From Aquimarina agarilytica ZC1 (lineage in GTDB: Bacteria > Bacteroidota > Bacteroidia > Flavobacteriales > Flavobacteriaceae), in assembly GCF_000255455.1 (NCBI RefSeq), contig NZ_JH621261.1, positions 1 to 64,000 on the forward strand: a stretch of 64,000 nt of DNA, read 5' to 3'. Positions within the stretch are counted from its first letter, which is position 1. Each line of letters begins with the position of its first letter. Below the pieces are notes generated by a model. The model was not told the DNA's origin. It searched no databases and saw only the letters and a list, made by a program, of their open reading frames with translations. Position numbers and translations under genes: made by a program. Positions 31 to 51,876 of this stretch are shown piece after piece.

Positions 31-510
31 TCAAAAGATGTACTTGCTCGGGGGGATACCTGTAAATAAAAATTTCGCGTATTGAATGTTTTTTAAGTTC
101 TTGAATCTTAAATTTTTATAATATTTAGTGTTGTCAATATTAAGATGAATAGAATAATACCCTTCTTGTATTCCTTCGTATAGAATTGGTTTCCATTCGA
201 ACCATTTGCCATCTATGGATTGAATTTGATATTCTATTGATTGTAGATCAGATTTAGTAGATAAAATTATTTCTACTCCTTGAAAGATGTTTGTCGGATT
301 TATTTTGGTAGATTTTCCAATGAAAAATTTGGAATTTTCAAATTGATCAGAAAATTCAATGATCTCTCCATAAGGATCGTCATTATGGAGTTCACGATTA
401 ATCTCATCATTTGATGTGGAAACTTCTTCATCAAAAGACTCCTTTATACAGCTAGAAATAGATAGCATGCATAAGATAAAAAAATAGTTAATAAAATGAT
501 TGCGATTCAT
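31..510 (-). CDS. Hypothetical lipoprotein, 159 aa
   Basis: A short secreted lipoprotein of unknown function. The N-terminus has a hydrophobic stretch (about residues 8-19) ending in the lipobox LSISSC, so Cys21 is the likely acylated residue, followed by an acidic linker (residues 22-45). The rest is a soluble domain rich in Trp, Tyr and Ile in which I recognise no family. It runs divergently from the broken two-component pair starting at 777, with 266 bases between them in which I see no clear operator. The ATG is the first in frame and gives a complete signal peptide. Confidence 0.6.
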   Translation of the reverse strand: MNRNHFINYFFILCMLSISSCIKESFDEEVSTSNDEINRELHNDDPYGEIIEFSDQFENSKFFIGKSTKINPTNIFQGVEIILSTKSDLQSIEYQIQSIDGKWFEWKPILYEGIQEGYYSIHLNIDNTKYYKNLRFKNLKNIQYAKFLFTGIPPSKYIF

Positions 511-776
511 TGAGATGAAAGTTTAAATTAAGTTATTTTATTACAAATGTCAGTTATAAAATTTAATGTATTGGTAGTTATTTTGTGGATGGTAGGATTA
601 AACTTGTGTTTTGTTTAAAAATGAATATGAGTTGTTTGGTTTTGGGTATATTAGTTTAAAAATTAATGGATAATTTACTCTAGGTTTATAAAGCGAATAT
701 TGAATTGTTCAGAAATAATAAATTTATAACGAAACCGTTTTTATTTGTATGAATGCTAATTCTAAAACTCTAAATA

Positions 777-1507
777 ATGATTACTTCTGTGCTTATAGAT
801 GATGAAAAAGCTTCATTGGATACCCTAGAATGGAAAATTCAAAACTATTGCCCTATCATTAAAGTAATAGATAAAATTATAGATTCCAGAATGGCAATAG
901 ACTCTATTGTAAAAAACAGACCAGATTGTATATTTTTAGATGTAAATATGCCAAAGATATCAGGATTTGACCTTCTGGATAGTTTAAATGATATTCAATC
1001 TTATGTAGTATTAGTGACAGCTTATGAGGAATACGCACTACGAGCAATTAAAGCTTCTGTTTTTGACTACCTTTTAAAGCCAGTAGATAAATGTGATTTA
1101 ATATCTTTAACTAAAAAGCTACAAAAGGATCTTGTAACGAAAAGTGTTCTTTGTGAAAAAAATCACATTCAAAATGTTAGTGTTGAAAAAAAATAGGCAT
1201 TCAAGCCAAAGGTTTAATTAGTTTTTATGAATTAAACGAGATTGTTTTTATAAAAGCTGAAGGAAGTTATACTAGAATCTTTTTAACTAATAACAGAATG
1301 GAGATGATATCAAAAAATTTGAAAGAAACTATTTCTCTTTTTCCAGAGAATGAAGTTTTTTTTAGAGTTCATAACTCTTATTATATTAATCTCAATCATA
1401 TTTCAAAGTATTATAAACATCAAGGAGGGACATTGATAATGAGTAATAATGAAAGTGTAAATATTAGTAGACATAAAAAAACTGAAATACTAAAAAAAAT
1501 TCTTTAA
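777..1507 (+). pseudogene. LytTR-family response regulator, frameshifted at an A8 run
   Basis: DNA-binding response regulator of the LytR/AgrA type, partner of the kinase that follows. The first frame (777-1196) encodes a receiver domain with the acidic pair IDDE near the start, the phospho-acceptor Asp in FLDVNMP, the conserved T/A of VTAYEEYA and the Lys of DYLLKP. It stops at TAG 1194-1196 directly after eight A (1186-1193). The LytTR domain continues in another frame from the same A run, through KGLISFYELNEI, FIKAEGSYTRIFL and FFRVHNSYYINLNHI, to 1507. Adding one A restores a 243-aa protein of normal family length. Either a real or reversible frameshift or a homopolymer undercall. Confidence 0.8.
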
Positions 1508-1521
1508 GAGTTTAATTTCTA

Positions 1522-2945
1522 ATGATTTTATTATTTTCAGTTTTTTCTTTTATAAATAATTTATTTCTGCAGATAGAATTGAATTCTTTAAAATATTATG
1601 AGCTTTTTGGTTTTCAGGCTTGGGTTCAAGGGGTTTTATCTGTTCTTTTTCTTTATCATTTCCTTTTTTTCTTTCAAAACAAAAATCGAATGTTTCTTTA
1701 TTACAGTGCATTTGTGTTTTGTCTTTTGGTATATTTTGCTCATTATGTTCCTAAAATGTTTTATGTTCCGGATATTTCATATGTTTCTGTGACATTATTT
1801 TATGGGATTCAATTTTTGGCCTATTTTTTTTATATCTGTTATGTTAGAGAGGTTTTAAATACCAAAGTTTTAATCCCTGAATGGGACACTATTCTACAAC
1901 TAGCCAAAAAGATATTACTTATTTTTATTGTGATCGTATCAATTTCTAGTCTTTTTCTTAGCACCATTGAGATTTTTACTCTCGTGGTTTTATTGTTTTA
2001 TTGTTTTATTTGGTTACTTTGTTTGCAACGGTTAATTACTTTATATTTTATCGTTTTGCTGGAATGCCAGTAAAACTTTTGATTACAGGATCTGTGGTTT
2101 ATCTTGTTCTTGCAAATGTTAGTTTGATTATAAGTGTTCGTATAGTATTCTACAATATTGTACCAAAATATAATCCAATCATTTTTATGCAAATTGGAGC
2201 TATAATTGAAGGGTTAATTTTCGCATTAATAGTCGGTTACAAATTTAATGACATTGAGCGTAAGAAAAGGTTAGCTCAAATACAATTGCTTAATAAATCA
2301 GTAGAAGCCTCTGAGTTAAAAGTAACTGCTTTAAAAGCACAAATGAATCCTCATTTTATATTTAATGTATTAAATTCTATCAATAATTTTATATTAAAAA
2401 ATGAAAAAGAATTAGCTTCCGATTATCTAACTAAATTCGCAAAGTTAATTCGTGTTACCTTAAAGAATTCATCTCAGTCTACGGTAAGTCTTAAAGAAGA
2501 ACTAGATACAATTAGAACCTATGTTAATCTGGAACAATTAAGGATTGAAGATGGCTTTGATTTGATAATAAACAATAATCAAAATTTGGATCTAAATCAA
2601 ATAGAAATACCTCCACTTAGTCTACAGCCTTATGTGGAAAATGCGATATGGCACGGGCTGTATTCCAAAGAAGCGGAGGATAAGAAGATAGAGATAAGTA
2701 TTAGTTCGAAGCTTGAAAATACACTTAATATAATCGTCAAAGATAATGGAATAGGAAGAGAAGCATCTTCAAAATTGAATCTTGAAGTTAAAAAATCTTT
2801 TGGAACTAAGATTACAAAAGAAAGAATAAAAATGATCTATCCTAATTCTTTGGTGGAAATTAAAGATATATATTCAAGTAATAACCCGAGTATCGTTTTA
2901 GGTACAAAAGTATCAATAATTATTCATGGTTTACCGAATTTATGA
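1522..2945 (+). pseudogene. LytS-type sensor histidine kinase, frameshifted by an 8-bp tandem repeat
   Basis: Membrane histidine kinase (His_kinase/HATPase_c type). The N-terminal half (1522-2073 frame) has several hydrophobic segments like the 7TM region of 7TMR-DISM receptors, without a large periplasmic domain. The second frame (from about 2001) carries the last membrane spans, a short coiled coil, the H-box with QMNPHFIFNVLNSI (phospho-acceptor His), the N-box YVENAIWHGL and the G-box VKDNGIGREAS. The frames change inside three exact copies of GTTTTATT (1987-2010). Removing one copy fuses them into a continuous 471-aa kinase reading LLFYLVTLFATVNYF across the join. It starts 14 bases after the response regulator, so the two form an operon. 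Confidence 0.82.
1987..2010 (+). repeat. Three perfect tandem copies of octamer GTTTTATT
   Basis: Three head-to-tail copies of GTTTTATT (1987-1994, 1995-2002, 2003-2010) inside the histidine kinase coding region. Eight is not a multiple of three, so each copy gained or lost changes the frame. Two copies (or five) put the kinase in frame; the three present put it out of frame. Confidence 0.9.
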
Positions 2946-3284
2946 AGTTTAAATATGTTGATATTGTGAGTAGTTTAGTTGTTTGAATTCTAATTAATCT
3001 TTTCGTAGTACCTCTGGTTTTCGTAGTTGGCGATCTTTTAGTCAAAAATAAGGAGTGGAAGTAAATCAGAATTAATAATCAATACAGTATTTGTTTCTTT
3101 ATCGATATCAGATTGTGAATAATCAAAAAATATTTTTCATTAATAAAAAACACAAAATGTCCCATTATTCCTAAGTGATTACCAAATTTTCTTGCATATT
3201 TCATGTTATGAAGAGAAAAATAGAACAGATAGAACAATCGTGAAGGAGGGAGGCTTAACTTTACTACTTTTAAAAAACAATAAA
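2946..3284. other. Intergenic region without recognisable genes
   Basis: About 340 bases between the kinase stop and the terminators of the GH74-like gene. AT-rich, with stops in all frames and no RNA gene or transposon end that I can recognise. Confidence 0.5.
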
Positions 3285-3347
3285 AAACCAGGAGGGGTTT
3301 TAGTTCTCCTGGTTTTAAACCAAGAGAGGTTTTAGTTCTCTTGGTTT
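3285..3347 (-). terminator. Tandem pair of rho-independent terminators
   Basis: Two adjacent hairpins. The first has arms AAACCAGGAG (3285-3294) and CTCCTGGTTT (3306-3315); the second has arms AAACCAAGAG (3317-3326) and CTCTTGGTTT (3338-3347). Both loops contain GGTTTTAGTT. On the minus strand they lie just after the stop of the GH74-like gene, followed by a T-rich tract, so they end that transcript. The arms differ by one compensated base pair (G-C against A-T), as expected for a duplicated hairpin kept for its structure. Confidence 0.85.
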
Positions 3348-3382
3348 GTGAGCTAATTAATAATTACATAGAGAGTTTGTGT

Positions 3383-6300
3383 TTACTCTTTAAGGAATTT
3401 AGCTTTATAAGAATATTTTTTTCCGGTAATGGAAATAAAATATAAGTTGCTATGGAGTTCACTTGTATCTAAGATATAGTTCTTCTCTTTGATGAATTTA
3501 GTTTCTATTACCGTTCCACTTATATTGTATATTTTCAGTACATATTCCTCCTTCAATTCAGAAGGAAAAACGATATGAAGATTATCTTTTGTTGGATTTG
3601 GAAAAAAATTTAAAGCAGTTTTGGAGGTTATTTTTGCCTTTTTACAATCATCTAGTTGTAGGGAACCAAAAACTGAGGTATCTTTCCATGCAATATCCTG
3701 ATTAGCGTTCCAAGCTGTTTTTCTATCTCTATCTCCGCCATCATCATCATCATTAATGTGTATGTCTAACCCAAGTCTATTGCCTGTGTTTGGGTTTAAA
3801 CCAATAAAAGACCACGCAATTTTGGCTTCTATCATATAACCAGAATTTGTTTTGGTTTGAGCAAAAGTGACTCCAGTAGGATTTTGTTGATTTGCCGGAT
3901 AGTGATATACGTTTTGGTTATTGTACTCAAATATTAGTTGATGATCATTTTGATCATAAGATGAGCTCTTGCTATTATCACCGTCTATATAAATTTCTAC
4001 ACTATCATCTTGATAAGGTTTTTCAGAATCATTTTGTAATATATCATCTACTACATCTACTAAAATGTAAAGATATTCTGAATCCCATTTTGTTTGAAAT
4101 TGTGATTTTTGGTTAGAGCTTGTTCCTACTATTTGATTTTCTATAGATAAAGAGTTTAAAGGCCAATCGTTATTACGACCATCAATAATTGGAGTATTGT
4201 TATTTTCTAAACAAATTTTATCTGCACCTGTATTTACAGGAAGACATTCTTTAGGCGAAACAGTTCCAAAAACAGCAGTATTTTGCCAAGCAATATCGCT
4301 TGAAGCGTTCCAGGTTATCTTTTTATCTCTGTTACCTCCATTATCATCATCATTAACGTGGATATCAAGGCCAAAAGGTTTATCTATTTCCGGATTTATG
4401 CCTATAAATGACCAAGCTATTCTAGTTTCTAATGTATAACCAGAATTCTTTGAGGTTTGTGCAAAATTAACACCACTAGGGTTTTGTTGATTTGCTGGAT
4501 AATGATATACTGTTCCACTATTATATTGGAAAACTAATTGATGATCATTATTGTCATAAGAAGAGCTTTTTTCATTTCCTCCATCTATATAAATTTCTAC
4601 GCTATCATCTTGGTAGGGCTGTTCAGAATCATTTGACAAGTCGTCATCTGTTACATCTACTAATATATAAAGATACTCTGAGTCCCATTGTGCTTGGAAT
4701 TTAGCCGATAAATCATTGTCAGATGTTACATTGCCAAGAATTTTATTAGAAAGAGGATATGAGTTTTGGGACCAATCTGCATCAGAACCATCAATTGTAA
4801 GTTGTGTATTTAAACTACAAATTTCTTTTTCTGGTTGATTAATAGGTGTTCCCGCACAATTACAGTTTCCGTCCTCTACATCATTCTCTGTATTTGGATC
4901 TCCATCATCACAAGGGGTACCAGAAGAAGGACAGTTTACGTCATTTATATCATAATAATAAATGCCATCAGAGCCAGGTCCTACATATAATCTTCCATAG
5001 ATAAATGGATCACCTTGCATTACTTTTGCTTGATTAAAGTTTCCTTGAATATAAGTTCCTATTTTCTTCCAACTTGAACCTCGGTCTATACTCATATGAT
5101 ACCCAAAATCTCCATTTACTTCACCTTGAATAAAAATAGTCGGATAATTTGAATTGGGTGCTGCTTTACCAACGGCAATATTATTTACTTTGTCTGTATT
5201 AGAGATTTCATTCCAGGTAGCACCTCCGTCGGTAGATAAATACACTCCGTGGACACCATCTTCTGCAACACCATTTGGGCCATGAGAATATAAAAGATGT
5301 CCAGCTTTACCATCCACTGAAATTAGTTTAGCATGCCAAGCGTTTGGCGGAACACTACCTTGTGTACTCCAATTAACCCCTCCATCTTCGGATTTAAATA
5401 TTTTACCATTACCCCAATCATATATATAAAAAGTGTTTGGGAGCACTCTATCCGCTACGAGCACTTTTTTCTCTAAGTAAAATGCATGAATACAACAGTT
5501 ACCTGAATTACAAGGCATGTTAATTTTTTTCCAGGTTTTACCTCTATCTTTTGTATAGTACGCAGGTTTATTACCAACTGGAAGCCAAACTATATTGTTT
5601 ATGTCATTTGCGGAAACAGCGATATTACCAAAAATCGAATTAACTTCATTTGGTTCTGGCATGCTTTCAAATTTTGTCCAAGTGAGTCCTCCATCCATTG
5701 AATATCCCGAATTTCGGTGTTCATCATCATAGCAGCAAAACCTGTGGTCTTCGGTTATAGTAACAACGAAATTGGGATTAGAAGGAGATACGTCAATATC
5801 CCAGGTAGAGTTAAAACGGGTATTAGGATAGTACCTATCTGCATATTCTTCAAAATTAGTAGGTTTCTTTACAAACATAGCTCTATCCCATAACCCTGCA
5901 ATAACATTCCCGTTTTTAAGGGCTACAATGTCGTTGTTTACCATATGTTCTTGCCCATATGAAAGTCCGGTCCACGATATGTCAGAATCATTTGTGTCAG
6001 TGGATACCCAAGTGCCAATTCCTCCCGCTCTCCATAGTTTTCCTTCAATAATAGGGTCAAACGTAATTTCTCCTACGGACATCCATCCTCCATCTCCCAA
6101 GGTTTTGAACCAAGGGATGTCAGAATCGGCAGTACTCCAGGTTAATTTTGTCCAACTAGGAGAAGACGAATTGGCATTAGTTGTTCTGTAAAAAGGCTTG
6201 TCTCCTCTAGCTTTAACAATTACTCTGTTGTTATTAAACGGATCCACGGCAACATCAGCAATATTAGTTTCATTGTTTGGTGTAATATTTTGCCATGTGT

Positions 6301-7129
6301 TTTTATTATATTTTCTGCAACCAAATTGGCGAGTAGAAACGTATAAATGTCCGTTTCCAGCAATTTCCATATCAGTAAATTCTACGGAATTACTAAAACC
6401 AGAGCCAGCTGTAATATTAATCCAACTTGTTCCTGCATCAGTACTTTTATATACTCCAACCCCGTCAATATTAAGGTAGATTGTATTGGTTCTACCATTT
6501 GTTGTACCACTGTTGGGGTCAAAAATTATTTCACGAATCCCTCTTTTTTCTGTACCTTTAAGTATATTAGATACAACTTGCCAAGAATCACCTCCATTTG
6601 TAGTTTTGTATAACCCATTATTAATACTACCAAAGTAAACAACATTTTTGTTATTAGGGTCGATGGATAGTCTTTCTCCATGTAATTTGGACTCATCTCT
6701 ATTTGCTGACATTCTAATGTTAGGAAAATTAGTAGTAACCCAAGTATCACCTTGGTCAACACTTTTAAAAATAGTATTGTCAAAAGCCATGTAAATTAGA
6801 TTTTTGTCGGAGGGAGCTGAATTTATACTGAGTACACCTCTATACTTGTATAAATTTACTCGATCTGCAGGCATGCTTGATGCGGTGATTAGAGGGGTCC
6901 ATTCTTTATTGTTTTCGTTCCATTTCCAGGCATTACTAACATCTGACTTGGCTAATATTAGTGATCCACTGGGGTGAATAGAAAGACCAGTTAACCAACC
7001 ACCTGCTCCTAATCTTATTTTCTTCCATTGATTTTCTTGGGCGAAACCAGAGTTTAACAAAAAAAAAACGAAAAATAACAACTCAAATAATGGTTTTATT
7101 TTTGTATTGTCTATTAAAAAATATTTCAT
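3383..7129 (-). CDS. Secreted GH74-like glycosidase with two CBM9-like domains and a T9SS signal
   Basis: A large extracellular enzyme, probably acting on a plant or algal beta-glucan such as xyloglucan. An upstream in-frame ATG at 7171 would add 14 residues; I prefer 7129 because it begins a normal signal peptide ending near SGFAQ. Residues about 20-740 form a propeller-type domain opening with LGAGGWLTGLSIHPSG, typical of GH74, with about eight Asp-box motifs (SVDQGDTW, STDAGTSW, SMDGGLTW, SEDGGVNW, STDGGATW and others). A Cys-rich acidic linker of the Bacteroidota type (CDDGDPNTENDV) follows. Then come two homologous domains of about 190 residues (roughly 770-965 and 965-1160) sharing WDSEYLYILVDV and YQDDSVEIYIDG, which resemble CBM9. 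The C-terminus is a type A sorting domain (FFPNPTKDNLHI). GH74 assignment is from overall pattern; substrate is inference. Confidence 0.8.
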   Translation of the reverse strand: MKYFLIDNTKIKPLFELLFFVFFLLNSGFAQENQWKKIRLGAGGWLTGLSIHPSGSLILAKSDVSNAWKWNENNKEWTPLITASSMPADRVNLYKYRGVLSINSAPSDKNLIYMAFDNTIFKSVDQGDTWVTTNFPNIRMSANRDESKLHGERLSIDPNNKNVVYFGSINNGLYKTTNGGDSWQVVSNILKGTEKRGIREIIFDPNSGTTNGRTNTIYLNIDGVGVYKSTDAGTSWINITAGSGFSNSVEFTDMEIAGNGHLYVSTRQFGCRKYNKNTWQNITPNNETNIADVAVDPFNNNRVIVKARGDKPFYRTTNANSSSPSWTKLTWSTADSDIPWFKTLGDGGWMSVGEITFDPIIEGKLWRAGGIGTWVSTDTNDSDISWTGLSYGQEHMVNNDIVALKNGNVIAGLWDRAMFVKKPTNFEEYADRYYPNTRFNSTWDIDVSPSNPNFVVTITEDHRFCCYDDEHRNSGYSMDGGLTWTKFESMPEPNEVNSIFGNIAVSANDINNIVWLPVGNKPAYYTKDRGKTWKKINMPCNSGNCCIHAFYLEKKVLVADRVLPNTFYIYDWGNGKIFKSEDGGVNWSTQGSVPPNAWHAKLISVDGKAGHLLYSHGPNGVAEDGVHGVYLSTDGGATWNEISNTDKVNNIAVGKAAPNSNYPTIFIQGEVNGDFGYHMSIDRGSSWKKIGTYIQGNFNQAKVMQGDPFIYGRLYVGPGSDGIYYYDINDVNCPSSGTPCDDGDPNTENDVEDGNCNCAGTPINQPEKEICSLNTQLTIDGSDADWSQNSYPLSNKILGNVTSDNDLSAKFQAQWDSEYLYILVDVTDDDLSNDSEQPYQDDSVEIYIDGGNEKSSSYDNNDHQLVFQYNSGTVYHYPANQQNPSGVNFAQTSKNSGYTLETRIAWSFIGINPEIDKPFGLDIHVNDDDNGGNRDKKITWNASSDIAWQNTAVFGTVSPKECLPVNTGADKICLENNNTPIIDGRNNDWPLNSLSIENQIVGTSSNQKSQFQTKWDSEYLYILVDVVDDILQNDSEKPYQDDSVEIYIDGDNSKSSSYDQNDHQLIFEYNNQNVYHYPANQQNPTGVTFAQTKTNSGYMIEAKIAWSFIGLNPNTGNRLGLDIHINDDDDGGDRDRKTAWNANQDIAWKDTSVFGSLQLDDCKKAKITSKTALNFFPNPTKDNLHIVFPSELKEEYVLKIYNISGTVIETKFIKEKNYILDTSELHSNLYFISITGKKYSYKAKFLKE

Positions 7130-7248
7130 GATAAATTGTGTGAATGTTAAGTGTTTTGAAAGGGGGAGCAAATAAGAGGTCCCGGTAATTTTATAGTTAC
7201 CAGTACTTCATTGCAAACTCAAACTTTAAAAGCTATTAATGAATTATA

Positions 7249-7848
7249 TTATTTACAATGTCTATCATAACATTGAGTCATGCAGTATGCATAAGCAGCA
7301 GTGCAAGCTAAGAGAGCAAATCCTCCTGTTCCAGCACCACAAGCGGTATATGCCGTAGCAGCAGCAGCTACGCATAAGGGATATCTCCAGTTACACTTTT
7401 TCCTCTTTTTCATAAATGAATAATTATTAATTTCTTTAATATTTTTCATTCCAATCGCTATAACTTTATTTTGTTCTGTTTCGGAAATCGAAGGAAGTAA
7501 ATCTGGATAACTCGTCTTTAGCTCATTCGCTATCAAGTTAAGATTTTCTTGAATTTTGATTATTTCAGGTATTTTGAGCAGTGTATTTATGGTTTCTTCA
7601 TCTTTATTTTGGTATAGTTGATATAATTGTCCACCAGAGATGTTTTCTTATTCCAAAATATTCGCTATTTCATTTACTAACTCATCTTGTAGGATTTCAA
7701 ATTCCTGAAACTTCGACTCTGCTTGTAGTTCTTTAAACCTAACCTCAGTATTACTCAAAGATTCGTGATCGTTTTCAACGTTGTCCTTAGAACAAGAAGT
7801 TATTAAAATTAGAGAAAATAGGATCAGAAAAGAACTTGTTTTTTTCAT
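7249..7848 (-). pseudogene. Lipoprotein with Cys-rich C-terminus, interrupted by an in-frame TAA
   Basis: Two open segments lie in the same frame, separated by one TAA at 7648-7650. The first (7648-7848, 66 aa) has a lipoprotein signal with lipobox LILITSC and an acidic helix. Translation past the TAA stays open: ENISGGQLYQLYQNKDEE and onward to 7249, ending in a stretch of about 50 residues rich in Ala, Gly and Cys (KKCNWRYPLC, TAYTACGAGTGG, CMTQCYDRHC). Read through, the protein would be about 199 aa. The downstream part has only a TTG (7536) as possible start. This looks like a single gene with a nonsense mutation; a separate small Cys-rich peptide is the alternative. I recognise no named family, although the Cys spacing recalls small secreted antimicrobial peptides. 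Confidence 0.65.
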
Positions 7849-8232
7849 GTTTAAATGGTTTTAAAAGATTAGTAATAATTTCTGATCAAAATTAAGTTAA
7901 CCTATGTGTTCCTAAATTTGTTTTTTTATAGTTGTAATAAATAAATTCACAAATGGTTTATATTGGGTTACTGTTGACATTTAATAACAGAGTTCATTCT
8001 TTTCAAGGAGGTAGGTTTACTTTTATTTAACTGAGATGTTTTTTATTTGTTCAAACACATCCAGTTTATTAATTGGAATAAGAAAGGGTAGGTGGGCGTT
8101 CATAAGGTAGTGTTTCAACTTTGCTTTTGGCGATTAGAGTTTTTTTTGCAGACTTAACGGTTGGTAGTTAATAATAAAAAATTCGATAGTTAACCATACG
8201 TAAAAGTGTAGTAAAATGTATAAAAAGTAAAG
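7849..8232. other. Intergenic region without recognisable genes
   Basis: About 380 bases between the broken lipoprotein and the end of the ketoacyl synthase gene. AT-rich, no long reading frame, no clear terminator hairpin and no recognisable RNA. Confidence 0.5.
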
Positions 8233-19421: not shown

Positions 19422-21329
19422 ATGTCTAAAATTATTGGAATTGATTTAGGAACTACAAACTCTTGTGTATCTGTAATGGAAGGGAATGAGCCAGTGGTTA
19501 TACCTAATGCAGAAGGAAAAAGAACAACCCCATCGGTAATTGCTTTTGTTGAAGGTGGAGAGATTAAGGTAGGTGACCCTGCAAAGCGTCAGGCGGTAAC
19601 CAACCCAACTAAAACCATTTCTTCTATAAAAAGATTTATGGGGAACAAATACTCTGAATCTAGTAAAGAGGCAGAGCGTTCAGCATACAAAGTAGTAAAA
19701 GGAGATAATAATACGCCACGTGTAGATATCGATGGTCGTTTATATTCTCCGCAAGAGCTTTCAGCAATGACACTTCAAAAAATGAAGAAAACTGCTGAAG
19801 ATTATTTAGGACAGGATGTAAGTAGAGCAGTAATTACTGTTCCTGCTTATTTTAATGATGCGCAGCGTCAAGCAACTAAAGAGGCTGGTGAAATTGCAGG
19901 TTTAACTGTAGAGCGTATTATTAATGAGCCAACAGCGGCAGCTTTGGCTTACGGATTAGATAAAAAAGAAACAGATCAAAAAATAGTAGTATTTGATTTT
20001 GGAGGAGGAACACATGATGTTTCTATTTTGGAATTAGGTGATGGTGTTTTTGAAGTACTAGCTACTGATGGTGATACACACTTAGGAGGTGATGATGTGG
20101 ATCAAAAAATTATTGATTGGTTAGCCGCAGAATTTGAAGCAGAAGAAAGCATGGACTTACGTAAAGATCCTATGGCTTTACAACGTTTAAAAGAAGCAGC
20201 AGAAAAAGCTAAAATTGAATTATCATCTTCGGCTTCAACTGAAATTAACTTGCCATATATTACTGCAACTGCAGCGGGACCAAAGCACTTAGTACGTAGT
20301 TTAACTAAAGCTAAATTTGATCAATTGATTGACGATTTAGTAAAACGTACTATTGAGCCATGTCAAACGGCACTTAAAAATGCAGGATTATCTACTAGTG
20401 ATATTGATGAAATTATTTTAGTAGGTGGATCAACACGTATCCCAGCAGTGCAAGAAGCTGTTGAAAAATTCTTTGGGAAATCACCAAGCAAAGGAGTAAA
20501 CCCAGATGAGGTGGTTGCTATTGGAGCAGCAATTCAAGGGGGAGTTTTAACGGGTGATGTAAAGGATGTATTACTTTTAGATGTAACACCTCTTTCGTTA
20601 GGAATTGAAACAATGGGTAACGTAATGACTAAGCTTATTGAAGCGAACACTACGATTCCTACTAAAAAGTCTCAGGTATTCTCTACGGCAGCCGATAACC
20701 AACCAAGTGTTGAAATTCATGTGTTGCAAGGAGAGCGTCCAATGGCTCAAGATAACAAAACAATTGGTCGTTTCCATTTAGATGGTATTCCACCAGCACA
20801 AAGAGGTACACCACAAATTGAAGTAACTTTTGATATTGATGCAAATGGTATCATCAAGGTTTCGGCAACGGATAAAGCAACTGGTAAATCACAAGATATT
20901 CGTATCGAAGCTTCTTCTGGTTTAACTGAAGATGAAATTGCTAAAATGAAGCAAGAAGCAGAAGCAAATGCGGAAGCAGATAAGCAAGCTAAAGAAACTG
21001 CAGATAAATTGAATGAAGCCGATGGAATGATTTTTCAAACGGAAAAGCAATTGAAAGAGTTTGGTGAAAAATTATCTGACGATAAAAAAGCACCAATTGA
21101 AGCAGCTTTAGAAGAATTGAAAAAAGCTTATGAATCTAAAGATTTAGCGGTAATAACACCAGCTTTAGATAAAATTAACGAAGCCTGGAAAGCAGCTAGT
21201 GAGGAAATGTATAAGGCACAAGCTGAAGCAGGAGGACAAGGAGCACCAACGGGTGAGCCTCAAGCAGACGCTGCTGGAGATGCATCATCTAACGATGTTG
21301 AAGATGTAGATTTTGAAGAAGTGAAGTAA
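19422..21329 (+). CDS. dnaK: Molecular chaperone DnaK (Hsp70)
   Basis: ATP-dependent chaperone of the cytoplasm, 635 aa, the normal length. Nucleotide-binding motifs are [12 protein letters not shown] at the start, [12 protein letters not shown] (about 192-203) and [12 protein letters not shown] (about 330). The substrate-binding domain and a helical lid follow, and the C-terminus is the acidic tail [11 protein letters not shown] that is typical of bacterial DnaK. No dnaJ or grpE is adjacent, as is common in Flavobacteriaceae. Own terminator downstream. Confidence 0.98.
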
Positions 21330-41482: not shown

Positions 41483-44173
41483 TTATGGTTTTACTATTTT
41501 TTTTAGATATTCCTTTTGTCCGATGTTTACTTTAATAAAATAGATTCCGCTGTCCCTATATTTTAAATAATTAAGATGATGAGAATTTGAATTACGATTC
41601 TCGGTTGTATTATACGTTTTTAGTGTTTTTCCATTGATATCTATAATAGATATTTCAATATCATTTTTTTCGTTGTCGGTATTCCATGCAATTACAGCAT
41701 CTATGGACCATGGATTAGGGTAAATAGCAACTTCTTTTTTTAGAGTTGTATTTAATTTTTTTGCCGAATTTTGTTCGGGATCAAAATCAAACCAAACTCC
41801 GTTGTAGTACCAGCTATCATTACATCTAAATAAATCTTCGGTTTGATTATTGCCGTTAGTACTAAAAATCAAATTAGTACAAGTAACTCCCTCTAGGGTG
41901 ATTTTATACCAATCATTAGCTTCACTTTCCATTGGAATTCCTGGCCAATTTGTAGTTAATGTAGTGGGCTCTGTATTCCAATAATATAAGCTAGGAGTAG
42001 CTAAAGTACCCTTATAATGAATAGTCATTGAATTCGATGTATCGTTGTTTTGAGTTGGATATTCATCATACCAAATATCATCAATGTACCAGCCATCTTG
42101 ATTTCTAAAAAGATCTACTGTTTTATTAGCTCCAGCATCACTAAAAATAAGGTTTGTGGCAGTTGTTCCATCAAAAATATATTCGAAAATATCATTTTCT
42201 TGTGTATCATACATTAATGGTCCGGGCCAATTTACAGCAGGTAATCCACTAGGCGAAGGATTCCAATAATATACATTTACTTGTGTCCAATTGGATGGTT
42301 TTTTAAAATAAACATGCAAACCATTACCGGTTGGCTTTGTGGGAGGTGTAATCACTACTGGGCTTGATGAGCCATCACAAGGTTCAAAAAAGCCTGCATT
42401 ACAGTTTCCAATCATTCCTGGACCATTACGCACATAAATTCCAGCGGAACCGGAGGTTACATTAAAATTAAGTGTCCCATTGGTGACATTTATTTCTCTG
42501 CCAGTTACGGCATCTCTGTAAATTCCATTTGACATTCCATTAATTGAAAATGAAGCGCCTCCATCTTTAGCTAACCCAACAGCAACTTCACTATTTTGAA
42601 ATATTCTTTTATATGCAACTGCATTACCAGGGGCATCTTTCCATGTCCAAGTTCCTTTTTGTAAGGCAGGAACAGCTTTTCTAATTGCATTTAGTTTTTT
42701 GATATGTTGGTATATTTTATTTTCCGGTGCTTGAAGCATGCTGTTACCATAGTAAGCACGACCAGTTTTGTCAATGGATTGTCGAATGCCTGAAGCATCA
42801 TGAATGTCGGCAAATTCACCAGCTTTAAACCTCATTTCGGTTCCATAATATACACTAGGAATCCCACGCCATGTAAACATAAAATTCATACAAGCAGCTA
42901 AGTTTTCATCGGTTCCTCCATAGCGTCTATTCCAATCGTTATTGGGGCCAAAGTCATGATTATCGAGCCAAGTTACTAATGTAGATGGGTCACTATACAG
43001 GTAATCATATCTGGCAGCAGCTTTTACGGTTGGAAATGATTGTCCCTCTTCAAAAGTTCCATGAAATGTAGCCTCGGCATAAAAATCAATGACAGCCATA
43101 TCCAAAGGAGCAGAGTTATTTACGGCTCCTCGCCAAGTGTAATAATGAGGGTTGGTTTCTTCGACAGGGTGTAATTCATGTCGCTTTTGTGCTACCTCAC
43201 CAAAAATGAATAAATCTGGGTTTATAGCTTTAAAGGCATCAAAAAAATAGATAACATCTTCTTTACTCATATGTTTAATGGTATCCCACCTAAAGGCATC
43301 AACCCCCATATTTATATATTTAGCGTAAGCACTAACTAAATACTCTCTTACTTTAGAGCTGCTAGTGTTTAAGTCTGGAGTATCACCGGCTAAAGCTCTA
43401 TTTTGTAAATTTTCGGTATCATCAAAACCTTGTGCAAAACCATTACCTGAATGATGATACCATTCGGGATCTGTAGTGTCTACATAGTTTTGTTTACTAG
43501 GAAAGTTGTAATTCGCTAGGTTTTGATTAAAAGGAGCGGGCATTTTAGCTAAATTGGCTCTACTCCATAGTAAGCCATCATCTGGGTTTGGAGTAATCCC
43601 ATCATATTCCCAATTGGGATTATCAATAGCAAACCAAGGTTTGGTAGGATCTGTGTTGTATTTTATTTCGGCTACATCTTTAATACCATATCTTCCAGAA
43701 TGATTCGTTACCACATCAAGGACAATTTTCATTCCTTTGGCGTGGACTTCGTTAATCAAATCTTGAAAAGTAGCACCAGGAGATTCTAATCTAGGATCTA
43801 CTTTTGTAAAATCCCATGCATGGTAGCCATGGTAATCCAAAGGACTTCTATTATGAACAATTGGTGTTATCCAAATTGCGGTAAACCCTAAATCCTTAAT
43901 GTAGTCCAATCTTTCAATAAGTCCTTTGAAATCTCCCCTCCATGTAACATCATTAGGATCAGTAATACTAGGATTAATTTCGGGATCTACATTGTATGAT
44001 GACCATTCTGTAGGAGCATTATTGGTAGGATCTCCATCGTTAAATCGGGAGGTTAATAGGAAATAGATAGTTTCTTCTCTAAAATCTACTTGGGCTACTC
44101 CCATAAGCGGGACTAAGTATAGGAAAAATAAGAGATTTGCATGTACGAGTAATTTAACTTTATTTTTTTTCAT
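41483..44173 (-). CDS. Secreted GH13 alpha-amylase with two starch-binding modules and T9SS signal, 896 aa
   Basis: Endo-acting amylase exported by type IX secretion. After the signal peptide (to about residue 28), the GH13 barrel shows region I DVVTNHSGR, region II GVDAFRWDTIKH with the nucleophile Asp, region III IFGEVAQ with the acid/base Glu, and region IV WLDNHDFG. A beta domain follows. Two homologous modules (about residues 620-705 and 714-800) with NVYYWNPSP/SLYYWNTEP and NLIFSDAGANKTVDLF/NLIFSTNGNNQTEDLF resemble CBM26 starch-binding modules. The C-terminus VAIYPNPWSIDAVI begins a sorting domain. No SusC/SusD pair is nearby. Confidence 0.92.
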   Translation of the reverse strand: MKKNKVKLLVHANLLFFLYLVPLMGVAQVDFREETIYFLLTSRFNDGDPTNNAPTEWSSYNVDPEINPSITDPNDVTWRGDFKGLIERLDYIKDLGFTAIWITPIVHNRSPLDYHGYHAWDFTKVDPRLESPGATFQDLINEVHAKGMKIVLDVVTNHSGRYGIKDVAEIKYNTDPTKPWFAIDNPNWEYDGITPNPDDGLLWSRANLAKMPAPFNQNLANYNFPSKQNYVDTTDPEWYHHSGNGFAQGFDDTENLQNRALAGDTPDLNTSSSKVREYLVSAYAKYINMGVDAFRWDTIKHMSKEDVIYFFDAFKAINPDLFIFGEVAQKRHELHPVEETNPHYYTWRGAVNNSAPLDMAVIDFYAEATFHGTFEEGQSFPTVKAAARYDYLYSDPSTLVTWLDNHDFGPNNDWNRRYGGTDENLAACMNFMFTWRGIPSVYYGTEMRFKAGEFADIHDASGIRQSIDKTGRAYYGNSMLQAPENKIYQHIKKLNAIRKAVPALQKGTWTWKDAPGNAVAYKRIFQNSEVAVGLAKDGGASFSINGMSNGIYRDAVTGREINVTNGTLNFNVTSGSAGIYVRNGPGMIGNCNAGFFEPCDGSSSPVVITPPTKPTGNGLHVYFKKPSNWTQVNVYYWNPSPSGLPAVNWPGPLMYDTQENDIFEYIFDGTTATNLIFSDAGANKTVDLFRNQDGWYIDDIWYDEYPTQNNDTSNSMTIHYKGTLATPSLYYWNTEPTTLTTNWPGIPMESEANDWYKITLEGVTCTNLIFSTNGNNQTEDLFRCNDSWYYNGVWFDFDPEQNSAKKLNTTLKKEVAIYPNPWSIDAVIAWNTDNEKNDIEISIIDINGKTLKTYNTTENRNSNSHHLNYLKYRDSGIYFIKVNIGQKEYLKKIVKP

Positions 44174-51810: not shown

Positions 51811-51876
51811 TATTGGTTGTTGGTTGAGAGTTGTCAGTTTTCAGTTGTGTGTTGTTGGTTATTCGTTGATATAAGT
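51811..51876. repeat. GT-rich low-complexity repeat
   Basis: Runs of GTTGTTGGTTGAGAGTTGTC-like text (AACTGAAAACTGACAACT on the minus strand) between cobU and cobT. A shorter similar stretch lies at about 39418-39445 before the acyl-CoA thioesterase. This type of AACTGACAACT-rich spacer is often dispersed in Bacteroidota genomes; function not known. Confidence 0.5.

Follow-up and report, generated by a model that had tools for sequence, protein, structure and literature searches.

Our analyses indicate that a two-component cassette of Aquimarina agarilytica ZC1 (genome G000), composed of a LytTR response regulator, a 7TMR-DISM/His_kinase sensor and a cysteine-rich lipoprotein, has probably been inactivated recently in this strain by slippage together with other mutations. 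The distribution of the cassette in the genus is patchy. The draft genome measures 4.25 Mb in 89 contigs; contig 16 has 99,450 bp, and its initial 64 kb are the DNA analysed, referred to here as the window. The features of the locus, several with their state in relatives such as G059, are as follows.

Positions 1-59, no strand assigned: end of a multi-copy element at the contig start, truncating the gene at 53-510.
Positions 53-510, minus strand: N-terminal remnant of a lipoprotein/DUF4214 gene that is open and encodes 572 aa in G059; 27% of the G059 protein is covered.
Positions 777-1196, plus strand: response regulator, receiver half (PF00072), whose frame is ended early by a frameshift; a single open frame in G059.
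Positions 1186-1193, plus strand: A8 run where the regulator frame is lost, holding an in-phase A AAA AAA heptamer (1187-1193) at which the LytTR frame opens.
Positions 1199-1507, plus strand: LytTR DNA-binding half (PF04397) of the response regulator, encoded in a different frame from the receiver half and open from 1187.
Positions 1522-2073, plus strand: sensor kinase, 7TMR-DISM membrane half (7TMR-DISM_7TM, PF07695), a 183-aa frame with a Pfam match.
Positions 1987-2010, plus strand: octamer array, three copies of GTTTTATT, all perfect, located by TRF and by alignment to G059; the aligner puts the surplus 8 bp at 1987-1994.
Positions 2001-2945, plus strand: sensor kinase, remaining membrane part and His_kinase domain (PF06580), a 314-aa frame with a Pfam match, in the other frame.
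Positions 3383-7171, minus strand: secreted protein of 1262 aa in an open frame, carrying Sortilin/BNR repeats, two stretches of CBM9 and a type IX sorting tail.
Positions 7249-7848, minus strand: gene for a cysteine-rich lipoprotein, interrupted by a TAA at 7648-7650; its counterparts in G059, G009 and G078 are open.

The frame starting at 1522 passes through the octamers and reaches a stop at 2073, and the His_kinase frame, open from 1971, ends at 2945. The initial annotation had described the kinase as split exactly at three perfect octamers and had calculated that two copies would give a protein of 471 aa, and both statements were borne out: TRF reports an array at 1987-2010 with a period of 8, 3.0 copies and a 100% match, the two Pfam halves lie in different frames, and 1424 nt less 8 leaves 1416 nt, that is 471 aa and a stop. 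The kinase of G059 is open and has this length (471 aa, 1416 bp, 8 bp shorter), with 86% identity across the gene.

The doublet GTTTTATTGTTTTATT has only two overlapping matches in the 4.25-Mb draft genome, both at 1987-2010. Repeat statistics were obtained from 459,450 bases of G000 comprising the window, the remaining part of its contig and the initial 20 kb of 18 other contigs, a non-random sample of ~11% of the genome (G+C 33%) that was picked by contig start. One perfect period-8 array of at least three copies was observed in these bases compared to none in 20 order-3 Markov simulations of equal size, a repeat number exceeding that set by composition as is expected of phase-variable loci based on simple sequence repeats (SSRs), and 30 further simulations (orders 1, 3 and 5) gave a mean of 0.0 such arrays. 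Perfect period-8 arrays of at least two copies are at chance level, with 13 observed in the 459,450 bases and a simulated mean of 15.75. Since two-unit octamers are at the level of composition and three-unit octamers are above it, the third unit needs a duplication event. In keeping with the slipped-strand gain proposed in the initial annotation, the extra copy has the look of a true tandem duplication, and we also agree that a base-calling error is an unlikely source of the octamer, as duplication of an 8-bp unit differs from a homopolymer slip. The same octamer, GTTTTATT, occurs in 28 perfect copies on a viral contig (L177:8035-8258), where the sole overlapping frame, of 84 aa, is built from the repeat itself.

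The array could also be read as a phase-variable locus in which gain or loss of an octamer toggles the kinase at a high rate, the assembly having caught it in the OFF state. Such a reading would draw on a three-copy array that exceeds chance, a unit length that is not a multiple of three and a kinase that is otherwise intact with a history of purifying selection. Frameshift phase variation in a two-component gene has reportedly been described in Bordetella pertussis, which provides a precedent. We nevertheless consider a switch unlikely, and the proposal that the octamer is an on/off locus did not hold up, as the array has three units only, two-copy octamers are at chance level, the relative G059 has an intact gene without a tract, independent lesions break both the partner regulator and the linked lipoprotein gene, and the upstream gene is truncated. 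At the octamer site G059 has two imperfect units with synonymous leucine/phenylalanine codons encoding Val-Leu-Leu-Phe-Tyr, an ordinary series of membrane-segment codons rather than a tract; with only two imperfect units in G059, the repeat tract is not conserved. The kinases of G025, G009, G032 and G013 (~50% protein identity) align without gaps at this site to the two-unit length, that of G012 is open and differs by one residue near it, and octamer-like repeats are absent at the aligned site from the kinase genes of all five. Retention of the tract in orthologs, a second characteristic of SSR phase-variable loci, was therefore found neither in G059 nor in these five genomes.

The other tandem repeats of this genome also count against a switch, as heptamers account for six of the seven perfect arrays with a period of 5-12 and at least three copies in the G000 sample, five of them outside ORFs and one overlapping an ORF end. 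According to passages of the review PMC11868660, phase variation requires a high-frequency reversible change with hypermutable repeat numbers beyond those of composition, and accidental tracts are a risk against which caution is advised. The likeness of our locus to the SSR contingency loci of those passages is in tandem units, of a length not divisible by three, within a coding frame, whereas it differs from them in having three units only, a tractless relative and partner genes that are otherwise broken. The heptamer arrays are a better site than the octamer to seek length variation. Tandem heptamers were observed in G000 (L108:16499-16538, L117:8945-8978, L118:16873-16980 and L125:17622-17822) and in G005 (L158:1-77 and L162:6686-6764), with a degenerate tandem heptamer in the window at 51813-51869. 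Their units include GTTGTCA, AGTTGTC and GTTGGCT, in 4.6 to 11.3 copies, and in both genomes they lie outside ORFs of at least 60 aa, except for L125:17761-17822, which runs into the end of an ORF. One form, TCAGTTG, differs by a single base from the TAACTGA repeats, read on the other strand, that are given in PMC4679880.

Other disabling mutations, which are one part of what the initial annotation had named as refuting a switch, are present in this assembly, namely the regulator frameshift and the lipoprotein TAA. The response-regulator gene (777-1507), which the initial annotation did not mention, is directly upstream of the kinase and is likewise split. Receiver and LytTR domains are present in one gene and His_kinase in the adjacent one by Pfam, as is characteristic of LytTR two-component pairs, and the domains are the same as those in known pairs of LytTR response regulators and 7TMR-DISM/His_kinase sensors encoded by adjacent genes (PF00072 and PF04397, PF07695 and PF06580). 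Unlike the known pairs, both genes are out of frame in this genome. In G059 the regulator has an A-run of 9 within an open frame. Within genes, alignment of 501-2990 to G059 shows no gaps that break a frame other than this one base in the A-run of the regulator and the 8 bp at 1987 in the kinase; a 3-base difference at 1145 preserves the frame. The regulator and kinase are both open in all six relatives whose pair was examined (G059, G025, G009, G032, G013 and G078), so that disabling lesions in G000 are set against open orthologs, as is expected of recent pseudogenes.

The receiver frame stops just past 1193 and the LytTR frame opens at 1187, the overlap being the in-phase heptamer. A scan of the regulator for X XXY YYZ heptamers in the right phase found two sites, at 1157 and 1187, and only the latter falls where the other frame is open. 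This overlap at A AAA AAA means that some full-length regulator could still arise, and the system might then be altered rather than dead, with slippage at the A-run, either transcriptional or as -1 ribosomal frameshifting, still yielding some regulator and the kinase being made as two pieces. We regard such a leaky module as very unlikely. The run is only an A8, and runs of this kind are common, with 39 of at least eight A or T within the window. In addition, a scan of the kinase across 1960-2073 for X XXY YYZ heptamers in the correct phase for a -1 shift found none, and the two kinase pieces would split the membrane segments apart. The reading does agree with the rate of protein change, which is not accelerated (see below), and with poly(A) slippage rescue as reported for Blochmannia and Buchnera in part of PMC3017870. 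The poly(A)-tract frameshifts of Blochmannia, which the portion of that paper drawn on here describes as occurring without faster evolution and with possible rescue by slippage, are the closest parallel to the regulator lesion, which is likewise an A-run shift in an AT-rich genome in an otherwise intact gene that is not evolving faster. However, G000 is not an endosymbiont as far as its 4.25-Mb genome tells, and the lesions in the kinase and lipoprotein are of other kinds.

The third lesion of the cassette is the single TAA in the lipoprotein gene, where G059, G078 and G009 have none. A search of 66 genus genomes with the G059 lipoprotein as query found some match in 14, four of which (G059, G000, G078 and G009) have matches of at least 47% identity, and the other ten have matches of 23-34% identity. 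The gene is at most ~5 kb from the kinase in all four genomes, and this proximity suggests that the regulator, kinase and lipoprotein genes are probably one unit whose products would act together. Possibly, the lipoprotein is a ligand or an output of the signalling system. Its family members in G059 and G009 had no match in a Pfam scan. Besides the window gene, members of the family are at L171, L173 and L174, and G025, G032 and G013 have a different lipoprotein-like gene 3' of the kinase. Reversion of the octamer would restore the kinase frame and leave the regulator frameshifted, although possibly leaky at A AAA AAA, and the lipoprotein with its stop codon, so that a switch at that one site would have little to switch; with its partner genes also broken, the locus looks like a signalling unit that is being lost rather than a switch. 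Two of the lesions do lie in repeats that could revert, which counts against inactivation. A doubly contingent module, whose pathway would be silenced and then restored in the few cells in which the A-run and the octamer, both of them slippage-prone, had each slipped back, is in our judgement extremely improbable.

The gene upstream of the pair is also damaged. Homology to G059 begins only at ~53, and the preceding window segment (1-59) has matches of 95-100% at most 10 bases from the ends of four other G000 contigs (C75, C50, C64 and C57) and matches at most 20 bases from the ends of two G005 contigs (C112 and C95). This multi-copy element is probably an insertion sequence, of which no transposase was seen. 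Counted against inactivation of the locus is the large neighbouring gene at 3383-7171, which stays open with 1262 aa and whose secretion tail domain (PF18962) was matched in the Pfam scan. In G059 its place is taken by a DUF1996 protein that ends in the same tail and has a single CBM9 stretch, and the front parts of the two proteins differ.

Since the genome is an 89-contig draft and the regulator lesion sits in a homopolymer, we also considered that the octamer and A-run lesions might be sequencing or assembly artefacts. To gauge the background of lesions in the assembly, proteins taken from portions of the G005 and G059 genomes were used as references at a cover of at least 80%, and 70 queries matched 55 distinct G000 stretches totalling 56.6 kb. 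Five matches were flagged: the regulator, the kinase, the lipoprotein and two gene-end differences, which were dropped, the stop preceding the likely start in one and adjoining the natural end in the other. Lesions were thus found in all three cassette genes and in none of the 52 other stretches. With the kinase that had drawn our attention set aside, the comparison is two of two against 0 of 52, for which the exact chance is 1 in 1431. In the reverse comparison, with G000 proteins as references, no lesion was identified in G005 for any of 31 proteins or in G059 for any of 40. Three G059 proteins with partial cover in the window were left uncounted; they correspond to the upstream gene that is truncated, to the large secreted protein and to a stretch at 41672-44125. 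The test scored three stops each in the regulator and the lipoprotein, which we ascribe to G059 frames that begin ahead of the likely starts; the actual lesions are a frameshift in the regulator and a single TAA in the lipoprotein. Within the testable 56.6 kb the lesions are therefore local to the cassette, and their confinement to its three genes argues against a generally error-prone assembly. The 8-bp duplication is no homopolymer slip and the lipoprotein lesion is a substitution, so that two of the three lesions are not homopolymer indels; with no frameshift in the 52 other testable stretches either, an artefactual origin is highly improbable.

Identity to G059 is 84% over 53-2964, compared to 65-77% for the other window stretches of more than 200 bases, with the exception of 82% at 19427-21329; shorter pieces reach up to 89%. 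The higher identity at the front of the cassette (84-86% versus 65-77% elsewhere) suggests that it may have moved between lineages. G005, which has 91% identity at one core stretch and is the closest relative there, has no counterpart of ~61-8200 apart from 46 bases of the kinase motif; lacking the locus, it gives no octamer copy number. From these alignments, loss of the cassette in G005 would be equally possible as transfer between lineages.

The main fact that the inactivation of the cassette must accommodate is the low dN/dS of its genes together with their unaccelerated change. Relative to G059, the kinase parts have a dN/dS of 0.09-0.15 and the regulator parts one of 0.11-0.19 (calculated with an experimental module of Biopython), and with outgroups the amino-acid changes are no more numerous on the G000 lineage than on that of G059 (all p > 0.5, from few sites). 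As protein change is not accelerated, either the lesions arose recently or the genes remain in use in some form, and apart from the lesions themselves nothing shows relaxed selection.

We propose that one unit of a chance two-unit octamer in the codons of a membrane segment was most likely duplicated by replication slippage, so that the kinase frame was lost and the protein came to end within its membrane domain. The regulator frame is lost in the A-run, the lipoprotein has acquired its TAA and the upstream gene is cut off by an element, with loss of function of the cassette as the likely outcome. Judged by title and the opening of the abstract, none of the matches listed in a literature search concerned this locus, and a search on phase variation and simple sequence repeats in Flavobacteriaceae listed no example of tract-driven LytTR control. 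If switching were true after all, the locus would represent tract-driven control of a LytTR pathway. On the reading that we favour, it would be an ordinary example of the death of a signalling cassette, with a slippage duplication, a homopolymer slip, a stop codon and an element insertion at one locus, and it indicates that where a striking octamer coincides with a gene break, the neighbouring genes should be inspected before a switch is called.
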